Below are positions 22,989 to 33,197 of a stretch of DNA of 40,519 nucleotides, one piece after another. The translations under genes were made by a program, and so were the position numbers. Location of the stretch: the NCBI GenBank assembly GCA_031270465.1, contig JAISXP010000153.1:1-40519 (forward strand), in the 5' to 3' direction. Position 1 is the first letter of the stretch. Every line of letters begins with the position of its first letter. Source of the stretch: Tannerella sp. GTDB lineage: Bacteria > Bacteroidota > Bacteroidia > Bacteroidales > Tannerellaceae. The notes beneath the pieces are model-generated. The model worked only from the letters and a program-made list of their open reading frames with translations. It made no database searches and was not told the origin of the DNA.

Positions 22989-25331
22989 TCATTCCCCCTT
23001 GATGCTTTCCACCGGATTGGCATTGGCCGCGCGCCAGTTCTGGAACGTGACGGTGGCGACCGTCAGCACGAAGATGACGGCAAAGGCGGCAAGATAGATC
23101 CACCAGTACATCGGCGTCCTGTAGGCGAAGTTTTCGAGCCAGCGGTCGACGGCATACCATGCTGCCGGAGCAGCCAGCACGAAGCACAAGCAGAGAATGC
23201 GGATATACGTCCTGTTGAACACAACGAGAATCTCGCGCGTCGAAGAGCCGAAGACTTTGCGAATGCCTATCTCCTTGCGGCGATACTCGCTGTCGAAAAT
23301 CACCAGCCCGAACACCCCGACAATCGAGATGAAGATGGCCACGAGGCTGAAGAGCGTAATCAGGCTGCTGAGTTTCTGTTCTTTTTCGTAGGTGCGTTGC
23401 AGCACTTCGTCGAAGAAGCGGACGTTGAACGGATATTCGCCGTCGAAGGTTTGCAGCGTATTGCGGACGTGCGTGACGGCTGCGCGCAGGTCGGCGCCGG
23501 CCTTCACCTTGACGTAAGCAAAGTTGGGCGTATTGCCCCAGTTCTGTGTTCCCCACACGAAGAAGGCCATCGGCGCGACGGCCGTGCGGAAGGAGGCGAA
23601 TTTCACGTCGGACATGAAGCCTACGATTTCGGCGCTGTCGATGTGGTCGTTCAGCACCAGGTCGTAGTTGCTGCGCGCCTTTTCGTTGAAGACGTAGACG
23701 CCGTGTCGCGTGTTCTTGTCGTCTTCGCGAAAGCCGCGTCCCTCCGCGACCTGTATGCCCATCACTTCGAGAAACGAATGGTCGACGGGCAGGCACTGGT
23801 AGTGGATGTCCCTGTCGTGATAACTCCTGCCCCACCCCATGTACTGTTCCTGGCTGGAGAGGAGCATCGCGGCATAGGTCACGTCGCCGATGCCGGCAAA
23901 ACTTTTCAACTGATTGGAGAAGGCTTCGCGGCTGTCGTTGATTTTCGCGGTGATGTTGGTGACGATGAGTTCGTCGCGGTCGTAGCCCAGTGGCGCGTGT
24001 TGCATGTAGTAGTTTTGCAGATACATGAACGACGCGCTGATGATGAGCGCGAAGGATGCTATGAACTGGATGCCGATCAGCACGTTGCGCAGATGCCGCC
24101 CTTTGGACGAAAGGCCGAAGCTGCCCTTGAGCGTCATTGCTGGCGGGACGGAGGTGACGTAGAACGCCGGATACAGCCCGGCCAGCAGTCCGGTGAGGAA
24201 AGCCAGGGCGGCGGTAGCGGCAACCAGCGCCGGATGCGTGGCGGGCGAAAGGTCGGCGTCTACCAGTTGCGCCAGCGACGTGGTTTCGGCCAGGGTGAGC
24301 AGTCCCACGCCCAGGAGATACGAACCGATGCAGATAACGATGCCCTCCACGATCAGCGCGGTGCGAATCACGACGGTTGAGCCGCCCAGCACCTTCTGCG
24401 TATTGATGCTGCGGATGCGTTTGGGCGCGAGCGCGGCGCTGAAGTTGGTGTAGTTGATGCCGGCGATGATCACGATCACGAAGGCGATGGTGAAGAGGAT
24501 GAATACCGTCTGGAGGTTCGACTTGGAGGCTCCGTCGTAAGCCACGTCCGCGATGAAGTGTACGTCGGGCAGCGACGTGAAGCGTAATTGAAGATCTTCG
24601 TACCAGGCGCTGTTGTTGGCAGGAGGTTCAAAGACTTTGAAGAAATTTTCGGCCAGTCCGTCGACGTTTTCCGCCGCATCCACGCGGATGAAACATTGAT
24701 AGTTCCAGTTGCCCCAGTTGCTGATGTTTTCCTTCTCTTTCATCGGCGAGTAGATGACGTTCCGAACGGACGAATTGCGCGGGAAGTCGCGGAAGACACC
24801 TCCGACGGTAAAGTTTTCGTCGCGTCCGGTCAGCAGTTTGCCCGTCGCCGGTTCGTTACCGAAGAGCCTCCGCGAGAGGCTGAGTGGAATCAGCACCTTT
24901 CCGGGGTCGTCGAGCGCCCGGTCGCTGCCTTCGATCATGTCGAAGGTAAACACCTGCGTGTATGAAGGCGACACGTTGAGCATTTCTTCTTCAATAAATT
25001 CTTTCCCGCCGCCGCGTTCTATCGAAAAGAAGAAGCGGTACCTCGGGCTGATAATAATCGTGCCCGCCGCGATATGCGGAGACGAGCGGAAGAAGGCGTC
25101 CGAGAAGGGACGGCTGACGATGGCCTGAAAGCCGCGGTCGGCGATGCCCGCCTCCACGCGGAAAATCCTGTCGGCATCCTTGTGGCCGCGGTCGAAGTTG
25201 CGATCGTAGTCTACCTGCATCATGATCGCCATAAAGGCGGCGAAAGCTACCGACAGACCCAGCACGTTCAGTACCGTCGCCAGCTTGTATCGCCGCAGTA
25301 CGCTCAGGAAATTTCTGATTATTGTCTTCAT
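22989..25331 (-). CDS. MacB/FtsX-type ABC transporter permease (second unit)
   Basis: A 780-aa permease of the MacB/FtsX family. The N-terminus has a short cytoplasmic piece and one membrane segment (about 20-40, LATVLNVLGLSVAFAAFMAI). A periplasmic MacB-PCD-like domain follows, then three FtsX membrane segments near residue 285-430. A second periplasmic domain and a final FtsX set end in FQNWRAANANPVESIKGE. The C-terminal NPVESIK motif is typical of Bacteroidota FtsX permeases. It lies downstream of the ATPase gene (25425-26105), separated by 93 nt holding a hairpin. It probably pairs with the permease at 26904-29276 as a heterodimer sharing that ATPase; the exported substrate is unknown. 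Confidence 0.9.
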   Translation of the reverse strand: MKTIIRNFLSVLRRYKLATVLNVLGLSVAFAAFMAIMMQVDYDRNFDRGHKDADRIFRVEAGIADRGFQAIVSRPFSDAFFRSSPHIAAGTIIISPRYRFFFSIERGGGKEFIEEEMLNVSPSYTQVFTFDMIEGSDRALDDPGKVLIPLSLSRRLFGNEPATGKLLTGRDENFTVGGVFRDFPRNSSVRNVIYSPMKEKENISNWGNWNYQCFIRVDAAENVDGLAENFFKVFEPPANNSAWYEDLQLRFTSLPDVHFIADVAYDGASKSNLQTVFILFTIAFVIVIIAGINYTNFSAALAPKRIRSINTQKVLGGSTVVIRTALIVEGIVICIGSYLLGVGLLTLAETTSLAQLVDADLSPATHPALVAATAALAFLTGLLAGLYPAFYVTSVPPAMTLKGSFGLSSKGRHLRNVLIGIQFIASFALIISASFMYLQNYYMQHAPLGYDRDELIVTNITAKINDSREAFSNQLKSFAGIGDVTYAAMLLSSQEQYMGWGRSYHDRDIHYQCLPVDHSFLEVMGIQVAEGRGFREDDKNTRHGVYVFNEKARSNYDLVLNDHIDSAEIVGFMSDVKFASFRTAVAPMAFFVWGTQNWGNTPNFAYVKVKAGADLRAAVTHVRNTLQTFDGEYPFNVRFFDEVLQRTYEKEQKLSSLITLFSLVAIFISIVGVFGLVIFDSEYRRKEIGIRKVFGSSTREILVVFNRTYIRILCLCFVLAAPAAWYAVDRWLENFAYRTPMYWWIYLAAFAVIFVLTVATVTFQNWRAANANPVESIKGE

Positions 25332-25424: not shown

Positions 25425-26105
25425 TCAGATGTATTTCTCTACGGATGCGACAATCGAGCCGTCGAAGAGGTGCACGATGCGGTGTGCGAACGATGCGTCG
25501 TGCTGCGAGTGAGTGACCATGATGATGGTTGTACCTTCGCCGTTGAGTTCGGAGAGAAGCTGTATCACTTCGAGTCCGTTCTTGCTGTCGAGGTTACCGG
25601 TAGGCTCGTCGGCAAGAATCAGTTTGGGGTTCGACACGACGGCGCGCGCAATGGCCACGCGCTGCTGTTGACCGCCGGAGAGTTGCTGCGGGAAATGCTT
25701 CGAGCGGTGGCTGATGTTCATACGCTTGAGGATGTCCGTCACGCGCTGTTTGCGTTCGGACGGTTTGATTTTGAGATACGTCAGCGGCAGTTCCACGTTT
25801 TCGAACACGTTCAGTTCGTCTATCAGGTTGAAGCTCTGAAACACGAATCCGATGTTTCCCTTGCGTACCTGCGTGCGTGCGCTTTCCTTCAGGTGCCCTA
25901 CTTCCGTTTCGCCAAGGTAATAGTTGCCCCCGGAGGGGTTGTCCAGCAGGCCGAGGATATTCAGCAGGGTTGACTTGCCGCATCCCGACGGTCCCATTAC
26001 GGCGACAAAATCGCCATCTTTTACTTCCATTGTCACGCCGTTCAGCGCGATGGTTTCTACTTCTTCCGTACGGAAGGACTTGCTTAAATTTTCAATTCTA
26101 ATCAT
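25425..26105 (-). CDS. ABC transporter ATP-binding protein, LolD/MacB type
   Basis: A 226-aa cytoplasmic ATPase subunit that should power the FtsX permeases of this locus. All ABC motifs are present: Walker [10 protein letters not shown] (38-46), Q-loop [12 protein letters not shown] (87-98), signature LSGGQQQ (142-148), Walker [13 protein letters not shown] (162-173) and the H-loop H199 in MVTHSQHD. The FQSFNL and EPTGNLD wording is typical of the MacB/LolD/FtsE group. It is the first gene of transcription unit 2, preceded by a sigma-54-like promoter (26152-26169) and two upstream binding-site candidates. Only one ATPase gene is present for two permeases. Confidence 0.96.
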
Positions 26106-26151: not shown

Positions 26152-26169
26152 GACAAATATTGTACCAAA
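26152..26169 (-). promoter_or_regulatory. Sigma-54-like promoter of the ATPase gene
   Basis: The minus strand reads TTTGGTACAATATTTGTC. It resembles the -24/-12 consensus TGGCAC-N5-TTGCW, here TGGTAC-N5-TTGTC. It aligns with the tolC promoter at 31971-31988 and lies 46 bp before the ATG. Confidence 0.65.
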
Positions 26170-26221
26170 GTTGTTACTTTACTGTATTCGTGCGAATTGA
26201 CGATTTTTGATTTTCGGCCGA

Positions 26222-26261
26222 GTGTCCAATTTTTTGACACTGCTGTCCAATTTTTTGACAC
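26222..26261. promoter_or_regulatory. Paired upstream activator sites for the ATPase gene
   Basis: Two copies of a 19-bp near-palindrome, GTGTCCAATTTTTTGACAC at 26222-26240 and CTGTCCAATTTTTTGACAC at 26243-26261. Their centres are 21 bp apart, two helical turns. The pair repeats upstream of tolC with the same spacing to the promoter. Confidence 0.7.
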
Positions 26262-26269
26262 TATTACTA

Positions 26270-26520
26270 CCTCGCCCTTTCTCCACAAGAGAGGGGGAGC
26301 GCTTCGGCGTGTTGTGCTTCCGGCGGATTTCTGTCTTATGGCATGATGTTCCACAACTTCGTTTGAACGGGGAATATGCCAAAATCGCGGTTCGCCGAAC
26401 GGAGTTGACGATAATTTGATATTTTCCGGGTTCTTCACGACCGAATCCCCGGAAGCACGGCTCGACGGAGCACGCTCCCCTCTCTTGTGGAGAGAAGCCG
26501 GGGGAGAGGTGGGGAGAACG
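26270..26520. repeat. MITE-like inverted-repeat element
   Basis: Near-complementary arms, CTTTCTCCACAAGAGAGGGG (26277-26296) and CCCCTCTCTTGTGGAGAGAAG (26475-26496 region), bound about 220 bp with no gene. The arms include Gly/Arg-looking GGGGGAGAGGTGGGG runs familiar from Bacteroidota intergenic repeats. Whether it is a mobile element (target-site duplication, transposase match) is not shown by the window. Confidence 0.4.
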
Positions 26521-26564
26521 CCTCGTCCAAACAGAAATTCAACGAACTTCGACAGGCTTCCACT

Positions 26565-26795
26565 CAAACTTTGGTTGTGTACTCCCAAACTTTGGTTGGA
26601 GCAAACGAGACTTTGGTTGGAGTCAACGAAACTTTGGTTGGAGTCAACCAAACCTTGGTTGGAGTCAACGAGACTTTGGTTGGAGTCAACGAAACTTTGG
26701 TTGGAGTCAACCAAACCTTGGTTGGAGTCAACGAAACTTTGGTTGGAGTCAACGAAACTTTGGTTGGAGACAACGAGACTTTGGTTGGAGCAAGC
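26565..26795. repeat. 11-copy 21-bp minisatellite
   Basis: Eleven 21-bp units such as gaaactttggttggagtcaac, with a higher-order order gag-gaa-caa repeated twice (units 3-5 and 6-8). Because 21 is divisible by 3 and the unit lacks stops in five of six frames, it produces long open frames of heptapeptides (TLVGVNE, LWLESTK, SNQSLVD). None has the look of a real gene. The array lies between transcription unit 1 of the exporter and the regulatory region of unit 2. Confidence 0.9.
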
Positions 26796-26865
26796 CAAAT
26801 CGCCGTCCGATAAGTTTAAATGTTCACTGTTACAAATCATTATAGGGCTGTTTAGTTATTCAGTC

Positions 26866-26884
26866 ATTTAGTCATTCAGTTATT
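26866..26884. repeat. 19-bp repeat, direct copy
   Basis: ATTTAGTCATTCAGTTATT, set in a run of TTAGTCATTCAGT-like words just after the permease stop codon. An exact inverted copy lies at 25352-25370. Confidence 0.7.
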
Positions 26885-26903
26885 TAGCGATTGCTCCGTT
26901 TCG

Positions 26904-29276
26904 TTATTCGCTTTTAATGCTTATCGCCGGGTTTGCATTTGCTGTGCGGTAGCAGTTGACGACTACGGTGAGAATGATGACGAACAGTATGCAGGCTGCA
27001 CAGGCGACAAACAGCAGGGGTGATAAGGCTGTCTTCTCGGAAAACTGTATCTGCCAGTTGAAGGCGATATATATCGAGATACCTCCACCGATCACTATTG
27101 CGGGTAGTGCGATGCGGTTGATGTCGGCGATGAACATGTGCAGTATGTCGGCAAGCGTGGCGCCGTTGATTTTGCGTATGGCCATTTCCTTGCGGCGACG
27201 GTTGATTTCGTCGCGTGTGTATCCGATTAGTCCGATCAGGGTGATGATGAGGGTGATGATGCTGCCGATCATGACGGCGTCGCGAAACTTGCGCGAGCCG
27301 GTGTAGAGGTTGACCATCTCTGTCGGGTAGGAGTAAACGGCGACGTCGAGGTTGGGCAGGAGGCGTTCGAGCGTTTCGAGCACGCGCTGGTTGGCTTCGG
27401 GCGTCTGGTGATGGTATTTGACGAGGAGCATGTTGCGGGGCGCGCTACTGTAGAAGAGCGCTGCCGGGCGCTTGTCTTCCTGCCCGATGGCGCCGAAGCG
27501 GACGTTTTCAATCACGCCACAGATGGTATATGGCTCTTCGCCGTGTTCGGTGATGATGACGCTCTTGCCGACGACGCCGTCGGTCCATCCTGCCAGCGGG
27601 GCAATCTTTTCCGCAAAGGCGCGTGTGACTATTACTTCGTGCGACGTGGTGACGTTTTCGGTGAACGAGCGTCCTTCGACGACGGGGATTTCCATCATCT
27701 CAAGATAGCCGTTGCCCACGCTGTACATGTCGCCCATGTTGAACAACTCGCGACTGCCGCCCGGAATTGATACGTTGTTACCGGACAGAAAATTGAGTAG
27801 CGTGACGGAGCACGTTGTTACCCGTTCGACTTCGGGCAGACGGCCGACTTCTTCGACTACCGTTTTCCGAACGTCGCTCTCGGCGCCGGCGAGCGGGCTG
27901 TAGGCAAGCTGTTCGTAGGCGTATCCCGGATTGCTGTCGATCATGTGGTCGTACTGCCGGACGATGACGACGAGGAACGAGAGCAGGAAGCCGGCGGCGG
28001 CAATCTGAAGGAAAAGCAGTCCGAGCTTCCAGATACGCTTGTTTTCCTTATGGTTTCGGAAGGCGGCGGCTACCGGTACGCGGGCAAAGAACGAGCCGGG
28101 AATGAATCCTGCGACGATGAAGACGAGCATGCATACGGCGGTGAGCAGCGCGAGGCTGCGCAGGTTGAAAAGCGTCGCCACGTCGGCGCCCAGCAGGTCT
28201 TCGACTATCCCGCGGCAGGAGTGCAGCAACACGGCGGCAAAGAGGAGCGAGACGACGAGATCGGCAAACGTTTCGGAGAGCAGCTTGGAGTAGATATTGG
28301 TCTTCGACGCGCCGTAGCACTTGTTGACAGCCATCTCGCGGGTGCGTCCGACGAGCGACGAGACCACGATAAGCACGTAGTTCATTACCGCTGTGAAGAT
28401 GAGCGTGAAGGCGAGGATGGAGAGCAGTCCGGCCATGCGGCGGGCGTCGTCGGTGCCGCTATGGATGTCGAGCAGGGGCATGAGGTGGTATCCGAGCCGG
28501 ACGCCCGATTCGCGGAGTTTGTCCATGGGCTGGTTTTTCTCCTGCATGGCGGCGATGGCGGGCGCCAGTCCGGCGGGCGTCGCGCCGGGGTGCAGCTTGA
28601 CGTATGCACGGTAGCGGTCATTGCCTACCCAGTTCATCGAGCCATCCCAGGTGAACTGTCCGATGGACGTCATCGAGACCAGCATTTCATACTCCAGGTG
28701 CGAATTGAGCGGCAGGTCTTCGAAGACGCCGCCGATGGTGAGCGTGCGTCCCGGGTAAGCTGAGAAGACAATGGTCTGTCCCATCGCTGCCTCGACGCCG
28801 CCCATGCTGCGGGCAATTTTTTCCGAAACCATGACGTACATCGGGCGCGACAGGACGTCTTTCGGGTCGCCTGTCAGGACGCGCCGCGGGAAGATGTCGA
28901 AGAGGTTCGTGTCGGCCAGCATGATCCGGGCGGAGTATTTCCGCTTGTCGGCCGTAAAGAACGTGCCGCCGCGGTAGGCGATCCACGTCATGCGCGTGGC
29001 GGCCTCCACTTCGGGAATTTCGGCTTTCATGCCGGGAGCGATGGCTCCGCTCACCTGCGGAAATTCTTTCGGTTCCCCTTCGCCCGAACTGAAGTTGGTA
29101 CATACCATGAAGATGCGGTCGGCGTCTGGGAAAAAGTCGTCATACGTCTGTTCGAAATACACCTTGGCGATTAATACAAGCCCTACGGCCAGTCCGGTGC
29201 CGAGCGAAACGATTTTTATAAAGCTGCTCCTTCTTTTCGAGAAGAGCGAGCGGAATGCGATGATAATTGATTTCAT
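26904..29276 (-). CDS. MacB/FtsX-type ABC transporter permease (first unit)
   Basis: A 790-aa permease with the same two-block layout as the permease at 22989-25331. It has an N-terminal membrane segment (SFIKIVSLGTGLAVGLVLIA), a first periplasmic domain, FtsX segments around residues 285-430, a second periplasmic domain, and C-terminal FtsX segments ending NANPAISIKSE. The two permeases are clearly related but not near-identical. It ends transcription unit 1 (tolC, adaptor, permease). The ATPase is not in this unit, so it must be supplied by unit 2. The minisatellite and MITE-like repeat follow its stop. Confidence 0.9.
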   Translation of the reverse strand: MKSIIIAFRSLFSKRRSSFIKIVSLGTGLAVGLVLIAKVYFEQTYDDFFPDADRIFMVCTNFSSGEGEPKEFPQVSGAIAPGMKAEIPEVEAATRMTWIAYRGGTFFTADKRKYSARIMLADTNLFDIFPRRVLTGDPKDVLSRPMYVMVSEKIARSMGGVEAAMGQTIVFSAYPGRTLTIGGVFEDLPLNSHLEYEMLVSMTSIGQFTWDGSMNWVGNDRYRAYVKLHPGATPAGLAPAIAAMQEKNQPMDKLRESGVRLGYHLMPLLDIHSGTDDARRMAGLLSILAFTLIFTAVMNYVLIVVSSLVGRTREMAVNKCYGASKTNIYSKLLSETFADLVVSLLFAAVLLHSCRGIVEDLLGADVATLFNLRSLALLTAVCMLVFIVAGFIPGSFFARVPVAAAFRNHKENKRIWKLGLLFLQIAAAGFLLSFLVVIVRQYDHMIDSNPGYAYEQLAYSPLAGAESDVRKTVVEEVGRLPEVERVTTCSVTLLNFLSGNNVSIPGGSRELFNMGDMYSVGNGYLEMMEIPVVEGRSFTENVTTSHEVIVTRAFAEKIAPLAGWTDGVVGKSVIITEHGEEPYTICGVIENVRFGAIGQEDKRPAALFYSSAPRNMLLVKYHHQTPEANQRVLETLERLLPNLDVAVYSYPTEMVNLYTGSRKFRDAVMIGSIITLIITLIGLIGYTRDEINRRRKEMAIRKINGATLADILHMFIADINRIALPAIVIGGGISIYIAFNWQIQFSEKTALSPLLFVACAACILFVIILTVVVNCYRTANANPAISIKSE

Positions 29277-29294
29277 AGTCTTTGAATATTAAAT

Positions 29295-30554
29295 TTATTG
29301 TTCGTTATTAAGTATAAGGACTTCGTTGTCGCGATAGCTTTCGTATCCGGAGAGGATGACACGCTCGCCCGCGTCGAGACCTTCGAGCACCTCGTAGTAT
29401 TGCGGGTTCTGGCGTCCGATGCGTATGCTGCGCCGGTGCGCCTTCCGGCCGTCGGCGTCGAGGACGAATATCCAGTTGCCGCCCGTGCTCTGGAAGAAGG
29501 TGCCCTTGGGTATGATGATGCTTTCCGAGGGCTGTCCGAGTTCGAGGTTGATGTAGTACGTCTGTCCGCTGCGGATATTGTCAGGCCGCTCGCCGGTGAA
29601 GATGAAGTCGGTGCGGAACTTACCGTCGCGCACTTCGGGATAAACCTTGCGCACGGTCAGGGCGAAGAGCGCGCTCTGGCGTTCAAATGTCGCATTCAGC
29701 CCCGTACGCACGCGGTCGATGTAGTGTTCGTCGATGAGCGCCTCGACCTTGTAGTCCGACAGGTCGTTGATCTGTCCGATTTTCTGTCCCGGCGAGACGT
29801 TCTGGCCGAGCACGACGTCGAGCAGCCCCAGTTCACCGTCTATCTGCGAGCGTATGTCGAGATGATCCTTGCGTTCGCGCACCAGCAGCACGTTGCGGCG
29901 CATGTTGGCCAGGTTGTCTTCCATCTGCTCCACCTGCGTCGAGCGGAGGATGGAGTCCTGGCGTATGCGTTCCATGATGAGCGCATGTTTCTGCAGAGCC
30001 AGGTCGTAGTCTTCGCGAGCCAGCAGAAAATCTTCGCGGGCGATGAGGCTTTCGGCTAAGAGTTTTTCCTGCTGTCCGAAGGAGCGTTTCTTGCGCGTGG
30101 TTTCCAGTTCGAGTTGCAGTTTCTCGTTTTGATTGCTCAGGCGGTCCTGCTCCATTGTGACGAGCGTGTTGCGGAGGAAGTTCTGCTTCTCGGCCAGGTC
30201 GGCTTCGGCCTGGAGTATTTGCAGGTCGAGCTGCGAATTGCTGAGTCGCACGATGATGTCGCCGCGCCGCACCTTCGAGCCTTCTTCGATGACGATTTCC
30301 TGCACGATGCCTCCCTCTTCGGGGCTGAGTTGCACGACGGTGATGGGTTGTACCTGTCCGTCCACGCGGACAAAGTCGTTGAATAGATCTGCCGTGGCCG
30401 TCCCGATGTTGACGCCGCGCGCATCGATTTTCAGTGTCGAGGAATGATCACCGAAGATGATCCATCCCAGCAGTACGATAAACAGGGCGCCTCCGGCGAT
30501 GTAGGGAAGGTGCTTCCTGCGGATTCCTTTTTTCTTTTCCAGTTGAATGTCCAT
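29295..30554 (-). CDS. HlyD/MacA-type periplasmic adaptor
   Basis: A 419-aa membrane-fusion protein that should join the inner-membrane ABC permease to the TolC outer-membrane channel. It has a basic N-terminus and one membrane anchor (about 17-35, LPYIAGGALFIVLLGWIIFG). Next come the lipoyl-like half-motifs (GIVQEIVIEEGSKVRRGDII), a long alpha-helical hairpin (about 105-220, rich in heptad-like L/E/R/Q), then LGQNVSPGQKIGQIND and C-terminal beta domains. It is 42 nt after tolC and 18 nt before the permease, giving a tolC-adaptor-permease operon. This is the classical type I/MacAB-like tripartite arrangement, with the ATPase in the neighbouring unit. Confidence 0.93.
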   Translation of the reverse strand: MDIQLEKKKGIRRKHLPYIAGGALFIVLLGWIIFGDHSSTLKIDARGVNIGTATADLFNDFVRVDGQVQPITVVQLSPEEGGIVQEIVIEEGSKVRRGDIIVRLSNSQLDLQILQAEADLAEKQNFLRNTLVTMEQDRLSNQNEKLQLELETTRKKRSFGQQEKLLAESLIAREDFLLAREDYDLALQKHALIMERIRQDSILRSTQVEQMEDNLANMRRNVLLVRERKDHLDIRSQIDGELGLLDVVLGQNVSPGQKIGQINDLSDYKVEALIDEHYIDRVRTGLNATFERQSALFALTVRKVYPEVRDGKFRTDFIFTGERPDNIRSGQTYYINLELGQPSESIIIPKGTFFQSTGGNWIFVLDADGRKAHRRSIRIGRQNPQYYEVLEGLDAGERVILSGYESYRDNEVLILNNEQ

Positions 30555-30596
30555 ATTATTTAATTTTTAATTGTTTGTTATTCATTATTTATTGTT

Positions 30597-31934
30597 TTAT
30601 CTGATGACGGGTTTTCCCTTGTAGTAGTCTACCTGCCGGCACTTGAGCAGATGCATGAGTTGCTTCTGCAGCAGCAGGGCTTTGGATTCGAGCAGCGTGG
30701 CGGCGCTGTTTTTCAGGTCGATCGGACTCATGAGTCCTTCTTCGAACTTGCGCAGGGTGAGCTGGTAGGCCAGTTCGTCGGCGCGGAGTTTCTTTTCCAT
30801 CTGTATGCACTCGCGGGCATAGCCGTCGCGGTCGGAGAGCGACTGTTCGATGGCCGTTTCCAGTTGGCGCAGTACTTCGGTATATTCTTCGCGTGCGATA
30901 CGCACCTGATTGCGTGCGCGGCGCGCTTCCTTGTGGCGAACAAGCCCGTCGAAGAGAGGGAAACGGAAACCGACCGACAGATATTCGCCGCGGTTGTTCG
31001 AGAACTGCGTCTTAAAGGCTGTCGGATCCATTTCCGATTTCAGGTTCTCGTAGTAGCTGGTATAAATGCCGGCCGAGAGCGTGATGGTGGGGAAAAGCTG
31101 CCCTTTGCGTATCAGGTGCTGCCGGCGAGCGATGTCGATCTTGTAGGCGGCCTGCAGGGCTGTGGGATTCGTAGCCTTTGCCGTTTCGTAGATGGCATCG
31201 GAAAGTTCGTCGGCGTAGATGAAGTCCGGCATTGCGGCGGTTGTGTCCACTTCGAGCGTTTCGCCGGAAGGGTAGTTCATGAGTTCTTTCAGTTTCAGCA
31301 TGGCCGTGTGATAGAGGTGTTGCTGATTGGCAAGGATGTAGTCGTCGCCTGCCGCCTGCGCCTCGACAAGCGCGACGTCGGCCTTGCCCCTGAGACCAAG
31401 TTCTTCCTGCCGGCGCTCCTTGTAGAGCAGGCGATGGCTTTCTTCCCGCTTTTCGTGGGCAAAACGCACGGCGCCGCGGTAATATAACACGTTGACAAAA
31501 GCTTCCAGCGTGGAAAGCGCCAGGTCGTCTTTGGCCTTCTGCAGGTCGTTCATGCCCGCCTGGCGGTTGAGTTTTGCCATACGCCACTGATTCACCAGTT
31601 GTCCGCCGTCGAAAAGTGGAAGCGACGCGTATCCTTCGTAATAGTTGTTGAAGGTGGTCGTGTTGACGTAGGTATTGGTCTCCGGGTCGATTGCGCGTCC
31701 GAAGTTGTGCTGCGTCGAAACGGCGGTGGTGAGACTGGGGAAAAAAGATGCTACCGACGACTGATATTCCGCCCGGTAGGTGTCGTTCGTGTGAAGCTGT
31801 TTCCTCACGGCCGGGCTGTTTTCAACCGCATAGCGCATGCAGTCGTCCATCGTCCACCGCGCGTCCTGTGCCGTCGCTGCCGGCAGGCAACCCCATGTAA
31901 GAGGTATCGATAATAATAATACTGTTTTTTTCAT
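30597..31934 (-). CDS. TolC-family outer-membrane efflux protein
   Basis: A 445-aa TolC-like channel that carries exported substrate across the outer membrane. The signal peptide is residues 1-22 (MKKTVLLLSIPLTWGCLPAATA). Two repeated OEP units follow, each with a long helix. Stretches such as FPSLTTAVSTQHNFGRAID, LNRQAGMNDLQKAKDDLALS and YAIDIAR-like helical segments are typical. It is the first gene of transcription unit 1. Its upstream region has a sigma-54-like promoter (31971-31988) and two 19-bp near-palindromes (32041-32080) arranged exactly as upstream of the ATPase gene. Confidence 0.93.
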   Translation of the reverse strand: MKKTVLLLSIPLTWGCLPAATAQDARWTMDDCMRYAVENSPAVRKQLHTNDTYRAEYQSSVASFFPSLTTAVSTQHNFGRAIDPETNTYVNTTTFNNYYEGYASLPLFDGGQLVNQWRMAKLNRQAGMNDLQKAKDDLALSTLEAFVNVLYYRGAVRFAHEKREESHRLLYKERRQEELGLRGKADVALVEAQAAGDDYILANQQHLYHTAMLKLKELMNYPSGETLEVDTTAAMPDFIYADELSDAIYETAKATNPTALQAAYKIDIARRQHLIRKGQLFPTITLSAGIYTSYYENLKSEMDPTAFKTQFSNNRGEYLSVGFRFPLFDGLVRHKEARRARNQVRIAREEYTEVLRQLETAIEQSLSDRDGYARECIQMEKKLRADELAYQLTLRKFEEGLMSPIDLKNSAATLLESKALLLQKQLMHLLKCRQVDYYKGKPVIR

Positions 31935-31970
31935 TACTCTATTTATTACGTTTGTTTTTGCTCATTATAG

Positions 31971-31988
31971 TACAAATAACATGCCAAA
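31971..31988 (-). promoter_or_regulatory. Sigma-54-like promoter of tolC
   Basis: The minus strand reads TTTGGCATGTTATTTGTA. It fits TGGCAC-N5-TTGCW as TGGCAT-N5-TTGTA, with GG at 31985-31984 and the TTGT at 31975-31972. It lies 36 bp before the ATG and aligns with the ATPase promoter (26152-26169). No TAnnTTTG box is found here. Confidence 0.7.
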
Positions 31989-32040
31989 CATATTAAATAT
32001 CTGTTATTCTTCATTTTAACGAATAAGATGAAAATAGAAA

Positions 32041-32080
32041 GTGTCAAAAAAATGGACAGTAGTGTCCAATTTTTTGACAC
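32041..32080. promoter_or_regulatory. Paired upstream activator sites for tolC
   Basis: GTGTCAAAAAAATGGACAG at 32041-32059 and GTGTCCAATTTTTTGACAC at 32062-32080, centres 21 bp apart. The promoter's GG is 56 bp from the nearer site, exactly as in the ATPase promoter. Consensus GTGTCnAAnnnTTnGACAC. Confidence 0.75.
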
Positions 32081-32129: not shown

Positions 32130-33197
32130 CTAATTCAGTTCGTAGCAGGTGCTCCGTCCGCCGCTGCTCTTGCGGTGCAGGATATTCTTGCATATCAAAT
32201 CCTGAATGTCACGCAGGGCGGTATCGGGCGAGCAGAGGTTGACGTTTGCCCAGTAGGACGACGTCAGTTTGCAGTCCGGGCTTTCCCACAGCAGGTTTAT
32301 CATCCTGACCTGTCGTTCATTCAGGCGGATAAGCCGGTATTTTTCCCAGAACTTTGATTTTTCGAGCGTGCGCGTCAGTGCATCTTCGGCCTCAATGAGT
32401 GCGGCTTCGAGACAGTACAGAAACCACAGCAGCCATTCGGTGATGTCGAGACTGCCGTTCTGCGCCCGTTTGAGTACACGGTTGTAGAGATCCTTCTGCT
32501 TGCAGATTTGCGCCGAAAGGCTGTAGAGATGTTGTGGGAAACCGTCGGCCCTCGTCAGGAATACGTCCGTCAATATGCGGGCAATATGGCCGTTACCTTC
32601 GATAAAAGGATGTATGAAGGTGAGACGCAGATGCGCCACGCCGGCCTTAATGACCGGATCGGTATGGTGTATCGTGTTGAGCCATTTAAGGAAACGTCGC
32701 ATCTCGTCGGGGATGATCGCCGGATTTTGGATGTACAGCAACCCGTCGGTCACCGCTTCGGATTCGAATGTGGCGATGCTGCGATAGAGATTTCCGGCAT
32801 TACTTCCGTTCCGTCCCAGTGCTGTTTGCCAGTTGAAGATGGTCTCTTCGGTAATAGGCCGGTGGTAGTTTTGCAAAGCTTCGATCATGATTTGTACCAT
32901 CCGGTCGATGAGAGGGTCGGTTTTAGACTGTTCGGGAAGACGCATTTTCAGGCGGCCGGCCACGGATGCGCGCACCTGTTCCTCGCCGAGCATGTTGCCT
33001 TCCAGTTCGGCAGATTTGATAACCTCTGCCGTAATGGTTTTCAACAGGATTTCCTTTTTGAAATCTAATCCCACCAAACTCACTTTGCCGGCAAGTCTCC
33101 CCTGCCGGTTTCTCACTTCGCCCAGAACGTAAAGCAATTCTTTATTGTCCCACGTCAAATAGGGCCATCCTTTGTGTTGCCAGATATATTTGCTCAT
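32130..33197 (-). CDS. Fic-domain protein with DUF4172-like N-terminus
   Basis: A 355-aa Fic-family protein. Fic proteins usually transfer AMP or another phosphate-containing group from a nucleotide to a target protein. The N-terminal ~90 residues (YIWQHKGWPYLTWDNKELL) resemble DUF4172, often fused to class II Fic domains. It includes the auto-inhibitory motif S62-x-x-x-E66-G67-N68, as in self-inhibited Fic proteins. The core Fic motif is H196-P-F-I-E-G-N-G-H204-I-A-R207. Position 204 is His where most Fic enzymes have Arg (HPFxxGNGR), which could reduce activity. A minus-strand -7 box TATATTTG lies upstream (33225-33218). It is separate from the exporter unit. Confidence 0.92.
   Translation of the reverse strand: MSKYIWQHKGWPYLTWDNKELLYVLGEVRNRQGRLAGKVSLVGLDFKKEILLKTITAEVIKSAELEGNMLGEEQVRASVAGRLKMRLPEQSKTDPLIDRMVQIMIEALQNYHRPITEETIFNWQTALGRNGSNAGNLYRSIATFESEAVTDGLLYIQNPAIIPDEMRRFLKWLNTIHHTDPVIKAGVAHLRLTFIHPFIEGNGHIARILTDVFLTRADGFPQHLYSLSAQICKQKDLYNRVLKRAQNGSLDITEWLLWFLYCLEAALIEAEDALTRTLEKSKFWEKYRLIRLNERQVRMINLLWESPDCKLTSSYWANVNLCSPDTALRDIQDLICKNILHRKSSGGRSTCYELN

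Follow-up and report, generated by a model that had tools for sequence, protein, structure and literature searches.

Three exporter transcription units of a Tannerella species are predicted to form a single sigma-54 regulon under one NtrC-family regulator, a reading to which we assign a probability of roughly 0.88 on the basis of comparative sequence analysis. Two of these units (tolC-adaptor-permease and ATPase-permease) lie in the window, by which we mean the whole 40,519-nucleotide stretch of DNA that was analysed, and the third is a lone permease gene on another contig of the same genome. The original prediction had one NtrC-family regulator switching on both halves of a split exporter; this idea is supported in silico, but its restriction to two units proved too narrow. 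The support comes from recurrence of the same layout in the third unit and in relatives, from the exporter genes that are the targets, and from the linkage and co-occurrence of a candidate regulator with the sites.

Each window unit is preceded by a sigma-54-type promoter and two dyads (Table 1). The GG of the promoter lies 56 bp from the nearer dyad in both units (26222-26166 and 32041-31985) and the dyad centres are 21 bp apart, so that recomputation reproduced all of the coordinates, distances and spacings first reported. The claim that each promoter carries two copies of one 19-mer holds for the pairing of the sites, but not for their exact identity, as only two of the four dyads are exact. 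The core TGTC-N9-GACA is present in all four, mismatched copies included, and three of them share an identical core sequence. Four window matches to the 19-mer at two or fewer mismatches were observed where 0.13 would be expected by chance, none of 100 window shuffles reached four, and the reported absence of the word elsewhere in the window holds even at this tolerance. Sigma-54 promoters follow the consensus TGGCAC-N5-TTGC, with the GG about 10 bp from the G(C) of the -24/-12 elements. When GG and G were required and T was accepted for C at two positions, the promoters of the three units scored 11, 11 and 12 of 12.

Table 1. Predicted regulatory elements and exporter genes in the window.
Feature	Position	Strand	Remark
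Dyad, promoter-proximal for tolC	32041..32059	.	2 mismatches to 19-mer GTGTCnAAnnnTTnGACAC
Dyad, promoter-distal for tolC	32062..32080	.	exact GTGTCnAAnnnTTnGACAC
Dyad, promoter-proximal for ATPase unit	26222..26240	.	exact GTGTCnAAnnnTTnGACAC
Dyad, promoter-distal for ATPase unit	26243..26261	.	1 mismatch to GTGTCnAAnnnTTnGACAC
Sigma-54-type promoter before tolC	31971..31988	-	TTTGGCATGTTATTTGTA; -12 = GT, not GC
Sigma-54-type promoter before ATPase gene	26152..26169	-	TTTGGTACAATATTTGTC; -12 = GT
tolC-like outer membrane efflux protein (OEP, PF02321)	30597..31934	-
HlyD/MacA-like periplasmic adaptor	29295..30554	-
Duplicated MacB_PCD/FtsX permease (FtsX2)	26904..29276	-
Stand-alone ABC ATPase (MacB/LolD/DarD-like)	25425..26105	-
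Duplicated MacB_PCD/FtsX permease (FtsX1)	22989..25331	-

The ABC ATPase is a separate 226-amino-acid protein that scores under the cut-off of the MacB model and lacks a fused permease, whereas MacB of MacAB-TolC is a fused ATPase-permease. The best or second-best NCBIfam models are DarD for the ATPase, DarC for the adaptor, and ADOP followed by DarB for the permeases. Every Dar and ADOP match falls under its curated cut-off, with scores against the equivalogs of the darobactin exporter DarBCD of 283.3 of 375 bits for DarD, 191.9 of 450 for DarC, and 77.1, 69.5 and 63.7 of 700 for DarB. The adaptor exceeds a cut-off solely for the broad RND_mfp subfamily (138.8 versus 94.9 bits), and any substrate assigned to the exporter would be presumptive. 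Repeat-rich DNA surrounds the second unit.

Hundreds of unrelated copies of the 19-mer would have spoken against a dedicated operator, but the word is not scattered through the host genome. Its 17-bp core occurs six times at one or fewer mismatches, forming three pairs, with no copies at two mismatches and 12 at three, compared with 11 in all in a reversed control; a fourth pair was not found in this genome at one or fewer mismatches. The third pair precedes the lone MacB/FtsX permease gene on contig C110 in the same 56-bp layout, and its promoter, TTTTGGCACGATATTTGCAC, is a textbook sigma-54 promoter. The promoter word TTGGYANNNNNTTTGY, which had also been proposed for a genome scan, was rejected as a genome-wide predictor when used alone, with 14 matches versus 14 in the reversed control. 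Because it occurs at chance level, only the fixed combination of dyads and promoter is meaningful.

This combination is conserved among relatives. A sigma-54-like promoter was found 53-56 bp from the pair in all 76 distinct pairs examined (20-93 bp searched), and exporter genes lie downstream of 73 of them; the 76 were drawn from about 144 pairs counted, and many of the source genomes are close kin. An earlier set placed the promoter at 52-56 bp in 23 of 24 pairs, and a family search by operator pattern alone recovered 29 loci (28 new, one seen before), all with a promoter 53-56 bp from the pair on one side but not on the other. Within 112 regulator loci, 51 carry a pair that has a promoter at a distance of 20-73 bp, and 55 of the 57 unique pairs from this set, which took in only pairs having a promoter, lie 52-56 bp from it. 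Pair and promoter together are absent from 45 of 80 named regulator loci and from 61 of the 112 in the wider set, and reversed-sequence controls yielded pairs in none of 123 genomes and pairs with a promoter in none of the 112 loci. Loci with the enhancer pattern were seen in Tannerella, Parabacteroides and Bacteroides; for example, in one Parabacteroides distasonis genome both tolC and the ATPase gene are preceded by pairs.

Repressors, too, commonly use palindromic pairs as operators. The dyads might accordingly bind a repressor, or an activator of the housekeeping sigma factor, with transcription starting at TAnnTTTG promoters and the promoter-like words being incidental, and the chance-level frequency of the promoter word by itself fits this alternative. 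However, a GG-N10-G element stands 53-56 bp away in 76 of 76 pairs, whereas TAnnTTTG, sought inside the 20-nucleotide promoter word only, occurs in none of the 76, and we regard this explanation as very unlikely. Even less credible is that the promoters resemble each other because neighbouring units were recently duplicated or underwent gene conversion, rather than through common regulation, as the three identical window cores and the repeats near the second unit might suggest, because the third pair serves a different permease on another contig and other Bacteroidales keep the dyad and spacing although the letters have diverged.

A regulator that could serve all three units is encoded elsewhere in the genome, as the original prediction anticipated. 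The host assembly (90.7% complete, 183 contigs) holds one rpoN gene (a single PF04552 match, E 1.4e-51) and two strong PF00158 matches, besides six weaker ones, although a further activator could be missing from so incomplete an assembly. Only one of the two strong matches, on contig C41, bears a receiver; it exceeds the cut-offs for PF00072, PF00158 and PF02954 (receiver, sigma-54 AAA+ and Fis-type HTH), and a histidine kinase gene adjoins it. The other, a receiver-less protein encoded next to lptE on contig C156, also combines an AAA+ domain with a Fis-type HTH and could in principle own the dyads. There is little to recommend this assignment, since the host pairs are placed on contigs C110 and C175 and none on C156, and in relatives the pairs occur beside the regulator that bears a receiver and are co-distributed with it. 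The C41 protein and its kinase are thus the likely regulators of the exporter pairs, and linkage and co-distribution indirectly suggest that this protein binds the dyads.

The regulator and the pairs tend to occur in the same genomes. Among family genomes at least 90% complete, 43 have both, 10 the regulator alone, none the pair alone and 12 neither (Fisher p 1.6e-7). The score cut-off behind these counts was set post hoc, and five partial matches are included; the counts become 41/10/2/12 (p 1e-5) without the partial matches and 35/4/8/18 (p 1.5e-6) with a stricter cut-off, and all of these p values are optimistic because the genomes are related. In all 123 genomes, pairs without the regulator number 5, 8 or 15 under the three definitions, and 10 of 53 fairly complete genomes with the regulator lack an exact pair. 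Of 112 regulator loci, 110 have the kinase adjacent to the regulator and 67 have an exporter gene no more than 6 kb away, as do 58 of the 83 loci for which the flanking sequence is ample, in agreement with the earlier statement that such exporters are often beside a sigma-54-dependent regulator. A pair lies within 10 kb of the regulator in only 13 of 32 genomes checked. None of 18 other regulator loci has the tRNA-synthetase or cold-shock genes that neighbour the host regulator.

The sigma-54-contacting loop of the C41 regulator reads not GAFTGA but GAFTDA, the prevailing form among its relatives (113 loci: GAFTDA 75, GSFTDA 31, GAFTGA 2, GAFTHA 1, not found 4). By eye, the recognition helices of many regulator paralogues read SRQTLYNKIKRY or TRQTLYNKMKKF and a few differ; a specificity switch between paralogues was considered and dropped, as no residue matched C/A at the fourth half-site position by the same inspection. 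The host kinase has two membrane helices with six residues between them. Hydropathy analysis of 112 kinases called two helices with fewer than 12 residues between in 58, one in 48, none in five and three in one, a method simple enough that the two-helix call is not firm for relatives.

In the proposed mechanism, the phosphorylated C41 regulator would bind the two dyads as dimers, with centres two helical turns apart. Its ATPase ring would assemble there, and DNA looping would bring the ring to the promoter, about 55 bp distant, to remodel the RpoN-RNA polymerase waiting on it and so activate transcription. The signal would be given by the adjoining kinase, which has almost no periplasmic loop. 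Regulator, kinase and exporter are neighbours in many relatives; they are apart here and may be coupled through their common operators. NtrC/glnA is the model of enhancer-dependent sigma-54 transcription, and the parallels include paired upstream dyads, a GG-N10-GC promoter, an activator with receiver, AAA+ and Fis-type HTH domains, and an adjoining kinase. The system differs in that its targets are TolC/adaptor/FtsX exporters, its kinase lacks a periplasmic domain, and its contact loop is mostly GAFTDA or GSFTDA.

Although the mechanism appears to be ordinary NtrC/sigma-54 control, this exporter regulon is apparently undescribed. The excerpted text of PMC12316311 (PLoS One 2025) reports predicted sigma-54 promoters, enriched in Bacteroidia among others, before ABC antimicrobial-peptide/FtsX-like permeases (COG0577), and cites sigma-54 for grpE and groES in B. 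thetaiotaomicron, but for the FtsX permeases these excerpts give neither an enhancer motif nor a spacing or regulator. Parabacteroides and Tannerella have no occurrences in its main text. PMC3162934 contains none of the terms sought, the excerpts of PMC11237479 hold nothing bearing on the exporter regulon, and no account of its enhancer or regulator was found in the portions of open-licence literature covered.

According to the excerpted text of PMC7828314, BceRS-BceAB of Bacillota joins an ABC exporter with a two-component system, and the kinase has no extracellular sensor. Many loci of relatives likewise combine an exporter with a two-component system, whose kinase, like that of the host, may have almost no extracellular loop. 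BceR is an OmpR-type regulator, whereas an NtrC-type regulator and sigma-54 are implicated here, and the exporter includes an adaptor and TolC. One speculative and rather doubtful extension is that the kinase, having no periplasmic sensor of its own, senses the activity of the FtsX/TolC exporter itself and, through the NtrC-type regulator and sigma-54, induces several interchangeable permeases that share the ATPase, adaptor and TolC, which would give Bacteroidota a Gram-negative counterpart of BceRS-BceAB. If so, exporter supply would be set on demand by flux, with sigma-54 providing a tight off state.

To our knowledge, few sigma-54 roles have been assigned in gut Bacteroidales. The layout provides a searchable enhancer code, in which paired TGTnnAA-N3-TTnnACA sites, mostly 21 bp apart, lie 52-56 bp from a TTTGGCAC-N4-TTTGCA-like promoter, and it names a candidate regulator for a predicted sigma-54 regulon of Tannerella, Parabacteroides and Bacteroides loci.

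Each of the two exporter units in the window is preceded, on the minus strand, by a TTTGG-N10-GT element, and at both tolC and the ABC ATPase gene a pair of dyads (core TGTC-N9-GACA), a predicted operator for an NtrC-type activator, lies 56 bp upstream of the element's GG with the dyad centres 21 bp apart. Re-checking on the window sequence confirmed the coordinates originally reported for the promoter elements and dyads. The 19-mer had been described as occurring in four copies, two of which are exact, but the other two carry mismatches; the four matches compare with a mean of 0.13 in shuffles. The first unit encodes TolC (OEP), a HlyD/MacA-like adaptor and a permease, whereas the second encodes a separate ATPase and a second permease, and each permease has two MacB_PCD and two FtsX stretches. 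The closest NCBIfam models for these proteins are ADOP and the darobactin exporter, all with scores below cut-off, and the adaptor reaches cut-off only for the broad RND_mfp model. The nested inverted repeats beside one enhancer pair, together with their partial copies elsewhere in the genome, suggest a small repeat element.

Features of the exporter region, in window positions unless a contig is named
Feature	Position	Remarks
19-mer dyad	26222	exact
19-mer dyad	26243	1 mismatch
Nested inverted repeats	26267-26506	directly adjoining enhancer pair; partial copies at contig C108:702-913
Tandem array, ~9.7 copies of 21-bp unit AAACTTTGGTTGGAGTCAACG	26587-26790	between the two exporter units
19-mer dyad	32041	2 mismatches
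19-mer dyad	32062	exact
Fic-domain protein, DUF4172 N-terminus	32130-33197	upstream of tolC; in several relatives the regulator is found on this side

The genome assembly spans 3.03 Mb in 183 contigs, is 90.7% complete and contains six copies of TGTCCAATTTTTTGACA at no more than one mismatch, none at two and 12 at three, and the reversed control gave 11 in total. The six copies form three pairs, the third of which is located on contig C110, 56 bp ahead of the GG in TTTTGGCACGATATTTGCAC, an element with a sigma-54 promoter score of 12/12 that precedes a lone MacB_PCD/FtsX permease gene (782 aa). The original prediction of a regulon of two exporter units is supported for both units in the window and would widen to include this third, which lies outside it. 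The promoter word alone is uninformative as a genome-wide predictor (14 matches versus 14 in the reversed control).

The genome carries a single rpoN and eight matches to PF00158, two strong and six weaker (E 3.5e-9 to 1.3e-4). Domain inspection covered the two strong matches: the protein on contig C41 has receiver, AAA+ and HTH domains and is directly followed by a kinase gene, whereas that on C156 is without a receiver and is followed by lptE. No match to the regulator or kinase was found in the window, which extends 8.6 kb upstream of tolC. The C41 protein is the likely regulator of the exporter units. Among the 112 loci that best match it, a kinase follows in 110, and an exporter gene resides within 6 kb in 58 of the 83 with ample flanking DNA. 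In 106 of 113 regulator loci (including L031:3941-5425), GAFTDA or GSFTDA replaces GAFTGA as the sigma-54 contact loop.

Site-to-promoter spacing is nearly constant among relatives, where a distance of 55 equals the 56 bp cited for the window because it is counted between the 17-bp core and the T that precedes GG. At 51 of the 112 regulator loci a pair has a promoter at a distance of 20-73 bp (reversed control 0/112), and the promoter lies at 52-56 bp in 55 of the 57 unique pairs, the others being at 30 and 64 bp. An earlier set of 24 pairs gave 52-56 bp in 23, the exception being locus L109. Every one of 29 loci collected via the operator pattern alone (L113-L141, of which L128 repeats the site of L080) has a promoter 53-56 bp away on one side but not on the other. 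When these are combined with 42 further and the earlier pairs, a promoter is found for all 76 distinct pairs (from at least ~144, many of them from close kin) within an allowed range of 20 to 93 bp, at 53 bp (4), 54 (10), 55 (53) or 56 (9); the invariance of GG and G follows from the promoter score, which demands them, but the position does not. The same score was attained anywhere in 180 of 4000 random 140-bp stretches. The first gene encodes TolC in 26 cases, an FtsX permease in 30 and the ATPase in 17; the other three are two genes of genome G105 and one orphan site, all described below. Three pairs of the earlier set of 24 (L090:9849, L090:3718 and L078:7264) have promoter-like elements 52-56 bp off on both sides, as if for divergent genes. 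The orphan pair (L277:2449, genome G437) has only a weak promoter-like word, with no exporter gene found downstream. In genome G105, a beta-lactamase-family gene (L074:5621-6985) and a DUF3836 gene (L075:7219-7623) each follow a pair and a 12/12 sigma-54 promoter, so that in this relative the regulon may also include genes other than those for exporters.

The strict pair occurs in seven of 393 genomes of the order, five of them in the window's family, probably Tannerellaceae; a relaxed version was matched by 64 of the 123 genomes from that family, with no control matches in either search. Four family members (L080-L083) have tolC and adaptor genes close to the regulator-kinase pair and transcribed away from it, with a site pair ahead of tolC and, in three, the permease listed next; two loci outside the family (L073, L079) likewise have tolC and a site pair. 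Pair plus promoter is present at 35 of 80 named regulator loci (reversed control 0/80) and absent from 45, some truncated by contig ends. Loci that combine these with regulator and exporter genes include those of Parabacteroides goldsteinii, P. gordonii, Tannerella forsythia and Bacteroides fragilis. A relaxed whole-genome scan matched 13 of 18 named genomes, leaving five without a match. Inspection by eye of 17 upstream regions from more distant regulator loci revealed the two-dyad layout in several, TGTA half-sites in some and no such layout in others.

Regulator and pairs are also distributed together. Among family genomes at least 90% complete (n = 65), 53 have the regulator, 43 of which also carry pairs, and none of the 12 that lack it do, at a score cut-off chosen after the data were seen and with a significance made optimistic by the relatedness of the genomes. 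The counts are 41 of 51 and two of 14 without partial matches, and 35 of 39 and eight of 26 at a stricter cut-off. A pair lies within 10 kb of the regulator in 13 of 32 genomes checked.

We infer that phosphorylated regulator dimers would occupy the two dyads and assemble there into a ring, with DNA looping towards the promoter permitting remodelling of RpoN. The kinase of this genome, with two helices separated by 6 residues, recalls BceS-type kinases, which are reported to read their transporter (PMC7828314); by analogy, we hypothesize that it might do likewise.

That sigma-54 governs FtsX permeases in Bacteroidia has been predicted before, in a paper that describes this as the first evidence (PMC12316311). 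Among the matches listed in searches of open-licence papers, there was no account of the enhancer code, the rule for its spacing, the candidate regulator or the proposed regulon of three units.
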